DNA of 42,931 bases from the NCBI GenBank assembly GCA_024638265.1, contig JAHEKQ010000015.1:8074-51004 (forward strand), given 5' to 3'. A program made the position numbers and the translations under genes. Numbering within the stretch: the first letter of the stretch is position 1; every line of letters starts with the position of its first letter. This document shows positions 8,984-32,284 of this stretch, piece by piece. The notes under the pieces were generated by a model. That model saw only the letters and a program-made list of their open reading frames with translations. It was not told where the DNA came from and searched no databases. The DNA comes from Flammeovirgaceae bacterium (GTDB lineage Bacteria; Bacteroidota; Bacteroidia; Cytophagales; Cyclobacteriaceae).

Positions 8984-9053
8984 GTATCCGCTATCCGGTA
9001 TCCGCTATCCGCTATCCGCTATCCGCTATCCGGTATCCGCTATCCGCTATCCC
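8984..9053. repeat. Tandem heptamer array, ten units of (C/G)TATCCG
   Basis: Ten head-to-tail 7-bp units. Units starting at 8984, 8998 and 9033 read GTATCCG and the others CTATCCG; the last ends in C instead of G. It fills most of the gap between the convergent ends of argH and the PurF-like gene. The reverse complement of the GTATCCG form makes up a second array at 32233-32281, also between convergent genes. Confidence 0.95.
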
Positions 9054-28425: not shown

Positions 28426-30807
28426 ATGAGAAAATTTTTTGCAGGACTACTGATCCTGCTGGTGCTGATCATTGTATCAGGAGGGCTCTACCTGTATTCC
28501 TTCAAGCCGGATTACGGCGGAGAAGTGATCCTCAAAGGCTTGAATTCTGAAGTTGATATAATTTACGATCAGTACGGGGTTCCCCATATTTATGCCACAA
28601 ACGAGGAAGATGCATACTATGCCCTTGGCTATGTGCATGCTAAGGAGCGTCTCTTCCAAATGGAAATGATCAGGCGCGTTGCCACAGGCAGCTTATCAGA
28701 AATTGCAGGGTCGGAGTTCATCAGGGTCGATAAATTCTTCAGAACCCTGGGAATGGAAAAGATTGCAGATCAATCTGAAGCTATAGATTTCAATGAGGAC
28801 AATGCCATTGCCCGATCGGCTGATGCTTATACAAGGGGGATTAATGCTTTTATTTCCGAGAATGATAAACCTATTGAATTCGTCCTGATGGGAATACCCT
28901 TGAGGCCATTTGAACGAAAGGACATTTATTATACGGCAGGCTACCTCGCTCTGGGTTTTGCAGAGGGCTTCCGAACCGACCCACTACTTACTTATATCGA
29001 GACAAAATACGGGAAAGACTATCTCTACAGCTTCTCAATAGATTCCCGCAATGAATCGGAATACCTGGGCGTATTTCCACAGGAGGAATCATTGGCATTG
29101 ATTAGCGAAGAGATGCATGATGTTTTTGACCAGATCCCAATACCCTTATTTCACGGGAGTAACAGTTGGATAGTTGGCCCCGAAAAAACCGATTCTGATT
29201 ATCCCATCCTGACCAACGATACACATATTGGCTACAGTCAGCCGGCCGTATGGTTTGAAGCACACCTGGAATACCCCGGAATGAGCCTTTATGGTCATTT
29301 TGCAGCGGGATTTCCGTTCGCCATCCTTGGTCATACTCCCAATACAGCATGGGGAATGACGATGTTTGAAAACGATGACGCTGATTTTTATGTAATGGAA
29401 ACCCATCCGGACGATTCCACAAGGGTCTTGATCGACAGCGTCTGGGTTGAATCTGAATCCCGTTATGATACTATTACAGTCAAGGACAATGACAAGGTAA
29501 TATTTGCTATAGCTGAAACACCATGGGGTCCAATCATCAACAACAGCCTTGAAGCATTCCCCTCTACAGTCAAACAACCAGTAGCTGCCCATTGGACCTT
29601 TCTTCAGAGTCCCAGTCCACTGCTCAATGCAACATATAATCTGTCAGCAGCAAAGAATGTATATGAAATTGGGGAGGCTGCCAGCCTCGTGAAGGCCCCC
29701 GGTTTAAATATTATGGCTGCTGATACTGAGGGGAATTACGGTTGGTTTGCGGCGGCTATGCTCAACAAACGTGATGGGATTTCAAATTCAAAGGTGTTTT
29801 TGAATGCCAATTCACATAGTCCCCAGGGGTATTATGACAATAGTTATAATCCCAAGGCGGTTAATACGCCCTGGAATTATGTTTATTCCGCGAACAACCA
29901 ACCCGATACCACGAGGGGAATTTTTCATGCGGGTTATTACATGCCGGAAGACCGGGCCATTGAGATTCGTACATTCCTGGATTCAAAAGATAAGTTCAGC
30001 TTTGAGGAACTTCGGGATTTCCAACTCCATTCCACTTCTTCTAAATCTGCGGAGGTCGCGAAATTGATACTTGACATATACCGGAACGTTCAACTAACCG
30101 GTGAAGAGACGGATATGCTGGCACTCTTAAATGACTGGAACGGAACACAGGATAGAAACTCCCTGGCGTCTACGGTATATTATACGCTGCTTTCAGAAAT
30201 ATACCACCACTCCATGGCAGACGAGCTGGGAAGGAAGAAGCTGGATATGATGTCGCAGCTCGCGGTGTTTAAAAGGAGTCATCTTCGCTTCCTCCGGGAA
30301 TCGTCGAATCCCTGGTGGGACAATACTAAGACTGAAAAAATTGAAAAACGTTCGGATATTTTATCAGAGGCCATTAGTCATGCATATGAAAAGCTTAGTG
30401 AAAATCTCGGGGATAATATGGATCAATGGCAATGGAAAAAGATTCACAAGCTCACCCATCCTCATATTCTTGGATCGGTCGACCTGCTGGCTCCATACTT
30501 TAACGTAGGTCCTTTTGAAGTGGACGGCGGTGTGGAAACGGTGAATAACAGTATGATGGCCTTGACCCATGGTCCAAGGCTGGATGCCCGGGCCGGGGCT
30601 GCTATGAGACGGGTGATTGACATGGGAAATGTGGCAGGGGCAAACGGAATTCTTCCCACGGGTCAAAGCGGACATTTCCTAAGTCCGCACTACGATGACC
30701 AGGCACAAATGTATGCCAATGGAGAATTCCGTATCTTAATGACCAGAGAAGAGGATATTTTCAAGCTAGAAAAAAATCATTTGACACTTTTACCTGATGG
30801 AAGATAA
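28426..30807 (+). CDS. Penicillin-acylase family Ntn hydrolase (S45), membrane-anchored or exported
   Basis: A 793-residue precursor with an N-terminal hydrophobic segment (about 4-25) and the alpha-chain block DQYGVPHIYA. The autoproteolytic junction is HG-S245-NSW; Ser245 becomes the N-terminal nucleophile of the beta chain, followed by PILTNDTHIG and the GFPFAILGHT block. The enzyme would hydrolyse an amide such as a penicillin, acyl-homoserine lactone or other N-acyl compound in the periplasm; the family does not predict the substrate. It lies between the CHAT gene and the K+ channel gene, overlapping the latter by 11 bp. Confidence 0.92.
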   Translation: MRKFFAGLLILLVLIIVSGGLYLYSFKPDYGGEVILKGLNSEVDIIYDQYGVPHIYATNEEDAYYALGYVHAKERLFQMEMIRRVATGSLSEIAGSEFIRVDKFFRTLGMEKIADQSEAIDFNEDNAIARSADAYTRGINAFISENDKPIEFVLMGIPLRPFERKDIYYTAGYLALGFAEGFRTDPLLTYIETKYGKDYLYSFSIDSRNESEYLGVFPQEESLALISEEMHDVFDQIPIPLFHGSNSWIVGPEKTDSDYPILTNDTHIGYSQPAVWFEAHLEYPGMSLYGHFAAGFPFAILGHTPNTAWGMTMFENDDADFYVMETHPDDSTRVLIDSVWVESESRYDTITVKDNDKVIFAIAETPWGPIINNSLEAFPSTVKQPVAAHWTFLQSPSPLLNATYNLSAAKNVYEIGEAASLVKAPGLNIMAADTEGNYGWFAAAMLNKRDGISNSKVFLNANSHSPQGYYDNSYNPKAVNTPWNYVYSANNQPDTTRGIFHAGYYMPEDRAIEIRTFLDSKDKFSFEELRDFQLHSTSSKSAEVAKLILDIYRNVQLTGEETDMLALLNDWNGTQDRNSLASTVYYTLLSEIYHHSMADELGRKKLDMMSQLAVFKRSHLRFLRESSNPWWDNTKTEKIEKRSDILSEAISHAYEKLSENLGDNMDQWQWKKIHKLTHPHILGSVDLLAPYFNVGPFEVDGGVETVNNSMMALTHGPRLDARAGAAMRRVIDMGNVAGANGILPTGQSGHFLSPHYDDQAQMYANGEFRILMTREEDIFKLEKNHLTLLPDGR

Positions 30808-31636
30808 ACCGTTAGCCAAATGGCGCGAGGATCTTGGCAATGTGATCTTTGGCGTCGATACATTTTCGGGCCGATTGTTTGACGTTTTATTGCTCCTGGC
30901 TATTGTCTTAAGTGTTGTAGCAGTAATGCTGGAAAGTGTGGTACCCATTGCGGAAGAATATGGGCTTTACCTGCACATTGCTGAATGGTTTTTTACCATC
31001 CTCTTTACCTTTGAGTATGCTGCCCGGCTAATCGTTGCAAGAAAACCAACGAAATATGCCCGGAGTTTTTTCGGGCTTGTCGATTTACTCTCAATTCTAC
31101 CCACGTACCTTAGTTTGGTCTTTTCCGGTGCTCAAATGCTACTTGTCATCCGAAGTATCAGGCTATTGAGGATTTTCAGGATTCTAAAACTGGTTCGGTT
31201 CCTGGGGGAAGCCAGTCAGCTCATGGAAGCGTTGCGGTCGAGCCGTGCTAAGATTACGGTCTTCATTGGAGGAGTATTTATTCTCGTGGTAGTCATGGGT
31301 TCTCTAATGTACCTCATTGAAGGAGGAGATAATGGATTCACCAGTATTCCCAGGAGTATCTACTGGGCCATTGTCACACTGACTACCGTTGGTTACGGGG
31401 ACATTGCCCCGCAGACCGTTCTCGGTCAATTCGTTGCCAGTGGCATCATGATCCTCGGTTATGGAATCATAGCTGTGCCCACGGGAATTGTTACCTCTGA
31501 AATGACCAAGGCCAAGTATAAAGTGAAGCACACTGAAGTCTACTGCCCTGGCTGCAATAATCGCGATCATGATAAGAATGCTGACTATTGTAAGATCTGT
31601 GGTACTTCTCTAGATAGAATTAATAATTCAGATTAG
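30797..31636 (+). CDS. Voltage-gated K+ channel (Kv-type, six helices) with C-terminal zinc ribbon
   Basis: A 279-residue ion channel subunit. A voltage-sensor domain (S1-S4, about 25-135) has positive residues every third place in S4 (R119, R122, R125, R128, K131, R134); the pore has the selectivity filter TTVGYGD (196-202). The C-terminal tail carries C250-x2-C253 and C265-x2-C268, a small zinc-ribbon pattern. It probably forms a K+-selective tetramer in the inner membrane. It overlaps the penicillin-acylase gene by 11 bp. Confidence 0.93.
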   Translation: MEDKPLAKWREDLGNVIFGVDTFSGRLFDVLLLLAIVLSVVAVMLESVVPIAEEYGLYLHIAEWFFTILFTFEYAARLIVARKPTKYARSFFGLVDLLSILPTYLSLVFSGAQMLLVIRSIRLLRIFRILKLVRFLGEASQLMEALRSSRAKITVFIGGVFILVVVMGSLMYLIEGGDNGFTSIPRSIYWAIVTLTTVGYGDIAPQTVLGQFVASGIMILGYGIIAVPTGIVTSEMTKAKYKVKHTEVYCPGCNNRDHDKNADYCKICGTSLDRINNSD

Positions 31637-31689: not shown

Positions 31690-31707
31690 ATTGAACGTTT
31701 GTTCAAT
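31690..31707. promoter_or_regulatory. Palindrome 1 of a four-site operator array (TetR style)
   Basis: ATTGAACGTTTGTTCAAT: inverted half-sites ATTGAAC and GTTCAAT. The first of four similar 18-bp sites upstream of the YccF gene; its start lies 34 bp before that of site 2. Confidence 0.7.
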
Positions 31708-31723
31708 TTTTTTTATGTCCCAG

Positions 31724-31741
31724 ATTGAACATTTGTTCAAT
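31724..31741. promoter_or_regulatory. Palindrome 2 of the operator array
   Basis: ATTGAACATTTGTTCAAT, differing from site 1 by one base. It directly abuts site 3 with no spacer. Confidence 0.7.
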
Positions 31742-31759
31742 ATTGAACGATCGTTCAAT
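31742..31759. promoter_or_regulatory. Palindrome 3 of the operator array, perfect 18-bp palindrome
   Basis: ATTGAACGATCGTTCAAT is a perfect palindrome and probably the strongest site. Such symmetric TGAAC/GTTCA half-sites are a common form of TetR-family operator; no TetR gene lies in the window. Confidence 0.75.
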
Positions 31760-31774
31760 TGTTGAATTGAAAAT

Positions 31775-31792
31775 CTTGAACAATCGCTCAAG
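31775..31792. promoter_or_regulatory. Palindrome 4 of the operator array
   Basis: CTTGAACAATCGCTCAAG, a weaker relative with half-sites CTTGAAC and GCTCAAG, starting 33 bp after site 3 and ending 60 bp before the YccF start codon. Confidence 0.6.
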
Positions 31793-31852: not shown

Positions 31853-32225
31853 ATGAACACTATCGGCAACCTGTTGTGGTTTATCCTGGGGGGATTTCTC
31901 ATTTTCCTTATATACCTGTTTGGATCTTTGGTACTGATTATAACCATTATCGGGATCCCCTTTGGTATTCAGACCTTGAAGCTTTCAACCCTGGCACTAT
32001 TTCCTTTTGGAAAGACCGTGGTCGCCGGAGAGAGGGCTTCCGGTTGTCTCTATCTTATCATGAATATTATATGGATCCTGGTCGCAGGTATCGAGCTGGC
32101 CATCGTACACTTGGTCCTCGCGTTTTTCTGCTTCATCACCATTATTGGCATCCCTTTTGCCCGCCAACATATCAAATTGGCAGCCTTAGCGCTGGTGCCA
32201 TTTGGGCATGATATTGTAGAGCGGC

Positions 32226-32230
<5 letters not shown>
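31853..32230 (+). CDS. YccF-domain inner-membrane protein
   Basis: A 125-residue integral membrane protein made of two similar halves, each with a hydrophobic helix followed by an IIGIPFG/ IIGIPFA segment and an LALFPFGK / LALVPFGHD turn, the hallmark of the YccF domain. Function is unknown. Upstream, in the 216 bp after the K+ channel gene, is the four-palindrome operator array, so expression is probably controlled by a TetR-type repressor. The stop codon TAG lies inside the first unit of the following tandem repeat. Confidence 0.9.

Positions 32231-32284
<54 letters not shown>

Follow-up and report, generated by a model that had tools for sequence, protein, structure and literature searches.

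Six arrays of four palindromes in a Flammeovirgaceae genome, one of them upstream of yccF, as probable operators of a TetR-family regulator

Four palindromes stand in close order before a yccF gene in the draft genome of a Flammeovirgaceae bacterium, and the locus raises the question of which protein reads them and to what end. The window, by which we mean the whole stretch of 42,931 nucleotides analyzed here, contains four TTGAAC-N4-GTTCAA dyads at 31690-31792, and its features are collected in Table 1 together with those of related loci in the same genome. The core is exact at three of the four sites and has one mismatch at the fourth, and the sites start 34, 18 and 33 bp apart. Four 18-mers at 31690, 31724, 31742 and 31775, the third perfectly palindromic and abutting the second, had been described in a first-pass annotation of this DNA, and all of these particulars, spacings included, were found as claimed. 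At up to two mismatches the window holds seven core matches against 2.96 expected, the three beyond the array being scattered two-mismatch matches. The gene downstream had been called a YccF gene, an assignment that is secure as judged by its profile matches (Pfam YccF, 126.6 bits; NCBIfam NF008740, 144.7 bits against a cut-off of 123). The six TetR_N matches of the genome (E<=0.001) all lie off contig C12, in agreement with the earlier remark that the window has no TetR gene.

Table 1. Positions of the putative operator sites, arrays and neighboring genes in the window and on other contigs of the same genome
Feature	Position	Strand	Remarks
Operator site 1 (putative)	window 31690..31707	.	ATTGAACGTTTGTTCAAT; matrix score 31.5 bits
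Operator site 2 (putative)	window 31724..31741	.	ATTGAACATTTGTTCAAT; abuts site 3; 27.8 bits
Operator site 3 (putative)	window 31742..31759	.	ATTGAACGATCGTTCAAT; perfect palindrome, GATC centre; 33.0 bits
Operator site 4 (putative)	window 31775..31792	.	CTTGAACAATCGCTCAAG; one core mismatch; 24.4 bits
Whole four-site array	window 31690..31792	.	contig C12
yccF, presumed target	window 31853..32230	+	125 aa; start codon 61 bp past site 4 core
Ion-channel gene	window 30797..31636	+	Ion_trans 121.4 bits; upstream, same strand; stop 53 bp before array
Sister array	C34:1317-1446		between stop codons of AHSA1-like and thiolase genes; fills the gap
Sister array	C69:150-268		47 bp before ATG of 171-aa gene (C146/C69); htpG starts 247 bp from other end
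Sister array	C70:3493-3593		between 5S rRNA and 3' end of M16 peptidase gene
Sister array	C93:7942-8032		ends 11 bp before ATG of TetR-family gene
Sister array	C110:60284-60382		47 bp before ATG of lipoprotein-like gene
TetR-family gene, candidate regulator	C93:8044-8619		192 aa; stands alone; array ends 11 bp before ATG

The genome (G000; 3.63 Mb in 173 contigs, 97.6% complete) was scanned for the same motif. At up to one mismatch TTGAACN4GTTCAA gave 43 forward matches, 21 exact and 22 with one mismatch, against eight for the reversed control, whereas the shorter TGAACN4GTTCA gave 28 and the stricter pattern TTGAACRWWYGTTCAA gave 20, both against none. All 21 exact matches sit in six arrays, on contigs C12, C34, C69, C70, C93 and C110; C146 ends in the DNA with which C69 begins (a 180-base overlap with one difference), and one exact match is duplicated there. 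The one-mismatch matches comprised three in arrays, one lone site on C169 and 18 scattered singles. When up to two mismatches were allowed, each of the six arrays contained exactly four sites, 24 in total. At the control rate for up to one mismatch, and with independence assumed, a cluster of four such sites within 101 bp would arise by chance with a probability of about 4e-12 per genome. A 24-position matrix built from the 24 array sites was scored over nine stretches of the genome; array members obtained 22.3-34.0 and the C169 site 29.7, and the best other position, the C146 copy aside, reached 14.9. In leave-one-out scoring of the 16-mer, members obtained 17.1-27.6, the C169 site 24.1, a single on C145 18.1, which is as high as the weakest array member, and the remaining 17 singles at most 14.4. 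Exactly one exact-core site in every array has a self-complementary GATC centre, a pattern noticed post hoc (p 0.03 for random allotment). The perfect GATC-centred site is present in seven copies in this genome, or six without the C146 copy, and was not found in any of 389 further genomes from the order.

The arrays are 91-130 bp long and all six are intergenic, two lying in convergent, two in divergent and two in tandem gaps. Their internal spacings were 34-18-33, 41-43-30, 30-43-30, 23-29-33, 23-29-23 and 30-33-20; the dyads alone are common to them. Since spacings and flanks differ, the arrays are not copies of one element. When the 18 spacings were pooled they favoured, at zero phase, a period of 10.5 bp (p about 0.005 with the period fixed; p 0.013 for the best period within 10-11, taken post hoc with uniform spacings of 17-45 as the null), and with a free phase, periods of 10.75-12 fitted slightly better than 10.5. 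The same-face, cooperative spacing suggested earlier from the window array is thus compatible with the pooled data, although some individual spacings, 18 and 34 among them, fit badly. In four of the six arrays a start codon follows, 11, 47, 47 or 61 bp past the array. Convergent gaps accounted for 5 of 41 gaps of at least 130 bp (312 kb sampled, crude ORF caller), and the two arrays found in such gaps represent no clear excess, yet no promoter preference either. Beside these two, on C34 and C70, we saw only short ORFs, mostly antisense to their neighbors and none convincing, and an Rfam search of locus L018 returned nothing beyond 23S and 5S rRNA. Based on domain matches, the genes next to the six arrays share no common functional theme.

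The first-pass annotation had taken the palindromes for TetR-style operators served by a distant regulator, and the genome scan for the pattern and for a TetR gene with a self-site turned up a strong candidate off the window contig, the C93 gene with its four self-sites. Of six TetR_N genes in the genome (E<=0.001), it is the only one with an array nearby (1.9-3.1 kb scanned round each gene); at locus L206 a lone two-mismatch match lies past the 3' end of the TetR_N gene. The C93 protein belongs to the TetR family, its N-terminal HTH domain scoring 34.5 bits against the curated Pfam cut-off of 24 (37.2 bits in the genome-wide TetR_N search), and its TetR_HI_0893_C domain 41.7 against 27. As is typical of TetR operators, short palindromes, here four, precede the regulator's own gene. 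The protein scored below the equivalog cut-offs of RefZ (NF037937, 26 bits against 180), KstR (41.4 against 280), FabR (37.4 against 151) and FadR (32.8 against 200), and it was not listed for SlmA (NF007015) at E<=0.001; the latter model was listed, below its cut-off, for the TetRs of two other loci, L139 and L091. On one side tetR is flanked by a divergent gene whose product has cNMP-binding and HisKA matches, and on the other by a run of N followed by a peptidase-E-like gene, the latter read by eye without a domain match. The divergent gene (L019:4281-5648) encodes 455 aa with a cyclic-nucleotide-binding domain, a HisKA match just under the cut-off and an N-terminus that is TIR-like by eye; a gene with a lipoxygenase match comes after it.

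Tandem copies of the motif were also sought in public genomes, where at least 114 stretches carry them; the 114 listed and four from viral contigs made up the 118 loci examined. In 80 of the 118 listed loci a TetR-like ORF lay within 300 bp of a site, and in 38 none lay that near; for random points in these loci the rate was 11%. In 49 of the 118 a site fell in the interval that runs from 300 bp upstream of the TetR start to 60 bp within the gene. Among the matches listed, tandem TTGAACN4GTTCAA pairs adjoin TetR genes in Shewanella, Vibrio, Alteromonas, Arthrobacter and others, which, with the array before the C93 start codon, supports the description of the sites as TetR-style. These loci have two or three sites, and in 81 of the 118 listed the distance between sites is 23-24 bp; four or more occurred, among the matches listed, only as regular short-period repeats (L121, L134, L145, L194, L199 and L201). 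No YccF gene was found in the 118 listed loci, and the neighbors of an Alteromonas TetR have no theme in common with those of the arrays. Arg29 in helix 2 of the C93 protein recurs in 78 of 81 aligned TetRs from motif-adjacent loci, many of them close relatives and the set not independent, against four of the protein's 47 family homologues; for Ser41 the figures were 44 of 81 and two of 47. Rows at E 1e-6 or weaker had been removed before alignment, and one of the 81 (L169:1803) does not itself adjoin the sites. Arginine at this position is common in TetR_N domains generally. Apart from G104, where both copies are at other places, the genomes of the 47 homologues are without the strict motif.

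Closer to home, none of the 38 nearest relatives had the strict motif. Eleven of 294 other genomes of the family carried it, in one or two copies each and 12 copies in all, four of which are beside a TetR-like ORF; no YccF gene was present in these 12 loci (about 3 kb each, one of 1.9 kb). The site set was thus not found in the sampled relatives, and its four-site layout is unusually constant. Absence upstream of orthologues in close relatives, which the first-pass annotation had named as evidence against its reading, is indirectly indicated by these counts. However, the absence of the motif does not discriminate between explanations, and neither supports nor refutes that reading, because no close orthologue of the C93 TetR was found in the 294 genomes either, the best-scoring homologues being 22-31% identical. 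Upstream of 19 family TetR homologues there was no four-site array with exact 7-bp arms (the upstream DNA of L060 being short); some have single palindromes there, a few styled AATGAACGTTCATT. Nothing like a theme shared with the arrays was apparent around one such homologue (a short-chain dehydrogenase, an aldehyde dehydrogenase and a VIT-family protein) or around a motif-neighboring TetR of the family (an alpha/beta hydrolase and a DeoC-family aldolase).

Taken together, these results make it probable that the arrays are four-operator sets of the C93 TetR, a protein that would be specific to this lineage, repress its own gene and act on yccF and others. The palindromes are very probably binding sites of this protein; control of yccF by its array is likely, and yccF is likely to be one target among several. 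It is established that the sites exist, that every array has four of them and that one array precedes tetR; binding, repression, cooperativity, a ligand and the status of yccF as a true target are what we infer. One dimer would bind each dyad of 16-18 bp, and with neighboring dyads mostly on about the same helix face, some four dimers would sit side by side over 91-130 bp. From the array 11 bp before its start codon the C93 TetR would repress its own gene, and in like manner yccF; the C110 lipoprotein-like gene and the 171-aa gene that diverges from htpG would probably be repressed as well, until a ligand brought about release.

The operator reading is preferred because the six arrays have exactly four sites each, with high matrix scores and few rivals elsewhere, because the only TetR_N gene of this genome with such an array has it ending just before its ATG, and because the listed tandem loci adjoin TetR-like ORFs far above the random rate. 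It is also favoured by the frequency of Arg29 in motif-adjacent TetRs relative to family homologues, by spacings close to the helical period and by the four arrays that precede an ATG. Against it stand the C34 and C70 arrays between 3' ends, where no gene start was found and which this explanation leaves out, as well as the lack of a theme among neighbors, the motif-free nearest relatives, the 18 scattered one-mismatch matches, the 38 listed loci without a near TetR and the post hoc character of the phasing and GATC patterns. Either the convergent arrays hold undetected transcripts or binding there has another purpose. To our knowledge, it is unusual for a repressor to keep to a layout of four sites at six unrelated loci, of which two have no gene start that we could find.

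Among described systems, the HI_0893-type TetR repressors are one of the nearest, given that both domains of the C93 protein exceed the corresponding Pfam cut-offs and that PDB 3QKX is its second-best sequence match among solved structures; the C93 gene differs in standing alone and carrying a four-site array. The pairs of Shewanella, Vibrio, Alteromonas and Arthrobacter share the core motif, the adjacent TetR gene and the helix-2 arginine, but belong to other TetR subgroups and have two or three sites. EthR is reported to bind its operator as a homo-octamer (PMC5403819), and the likeness, predicted in the C93 case, would consist of an autoregulated TetR-family protein with four dimers at one promoter region; the difference is that the C93 system has four separate clear dyads over its 91-130 bp, at six loci. 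By analogy, four loosely phased dyads are compatible with EthR-type octameric loading. SlmA and RefZ are TetR-family proteins with positional DNA sites, dozens in the case of E. coli SlmA and five motifs at a handful of loci in that of RefZ, according to the accessible text of PMC6657595. They resemble the C93 system in the TetR fold and, for RefZ, in the small number of loci; the C93 protein matches neither model, and four-site arrays are not described for them in that text. Nor is the arrangement described in the accessible portions of the literature on multiple TetR operators, YccF regulation and Bacteroidetes TetR regulons, which is not proof of absence; no paper on Cytophagales TetR proteins was among those listed.

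A positional role like that of SlmA or RefZ is possible, though weakly supported. The arrays would then be chromosomal landmarks loaded with several TetR dimers, organizing the nucleoid or guiding division, and it would be incidental that some of them lie near start codons, autoregulation excepted. Such a role would suit the fixed four copies per array, the intergenic position of all six, the absence of promoter preference or functional theme and the precedent of two positionally acting family members (PMC6657595, accessible text). Yet a start codon lies close to four of the six arrays, the C93 TetR fails the RefZ cut-off and is unlisted for SlmA, and six arrays plus one lone site on 3.6 Mb are few for nucleoid occlusion, so that we consider landmarks improbable. 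We find it marginally harder still to credit a lineage-specific TetR with six landmark arrays that evolved nucleoid positioning independently of SlmA and RefZ, plus autoregulation. Another regulator could bind the sites, with C93 tetR merely one of six targets, as the listed loci without a TetR-like ORF and the purely predicted binding by the C93 protein would allow. The TetR genes near most listed loci, often with a site at their start, the helix-2 arginine that the C93 protein shares with motif-neighboring TetRs and the lack of arrays at the remaining five TetR genes of this genome speak against this, and we judge it unlikely.

Two of the arrays are situated between 3' ends, a frequent setting for repeats and terminators, and the intergenic DNA of this genome has other short repeats, as would be expected if the dyads were structural elements (terminator hairpins, or REP- or MITE-like sequences) with no regulatory role. 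However, the arrays have only the dyads in common, each dyad arm measures 6 bp and is AT-rich, every exact copy of the motif belongs to an array and four arrays come close before start codons; a structural origin is thus very unlikely. As for chance clustering, the 18 scattered one-mismatch matches are of the order of the eight in the control; for the arrays themselves chance is refuted by the excess of all three patterns over their reversed controls and by the recurrence of six arrays of four, leaving it a negligible probability.

If the C93 TetR does act through these operators, an orphan TetR regulator is linked to a sharply bounded site set in one genome, and a YccF gene gains a regulatory handle. 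The system would also offer a clean way to ask what a TetR needs four dimers for and whether TetRs drift from gene control to chromosome organization.

Some minor observations were made along the way. The lone C169 site (ATGAACGATCGTTCAA, L022:5697-5712), the top-scoring one outside any array, is upstream of feoB-side DNA as well as of a divergently oriented 251-aa gene. Short-period tandem repeats with the 7-bp units ACCGGAT and TATCCGC occupy 32231-32284 and 8985-9052 of the window, and degenerate repeats resembling them are also found near other arrays (L017 290-430, L018 3280-3720 and L019 5720-5930). In Thiotrichales bacterium 19S3-11 (L112:3065-3652) a TetR adjoining a tandem motif pair has RefZ as its top NCBIfam match, nearly full length, at 62 bits and below the cut-off of 180. 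Tandem repeats of 23 bp that contain TTGAACN4GTTCAA are present at L121:6823-6907 and L134:4457-4577, both on Prevotellaceae contigs and near the end of the stretch, and at L194:869-976.
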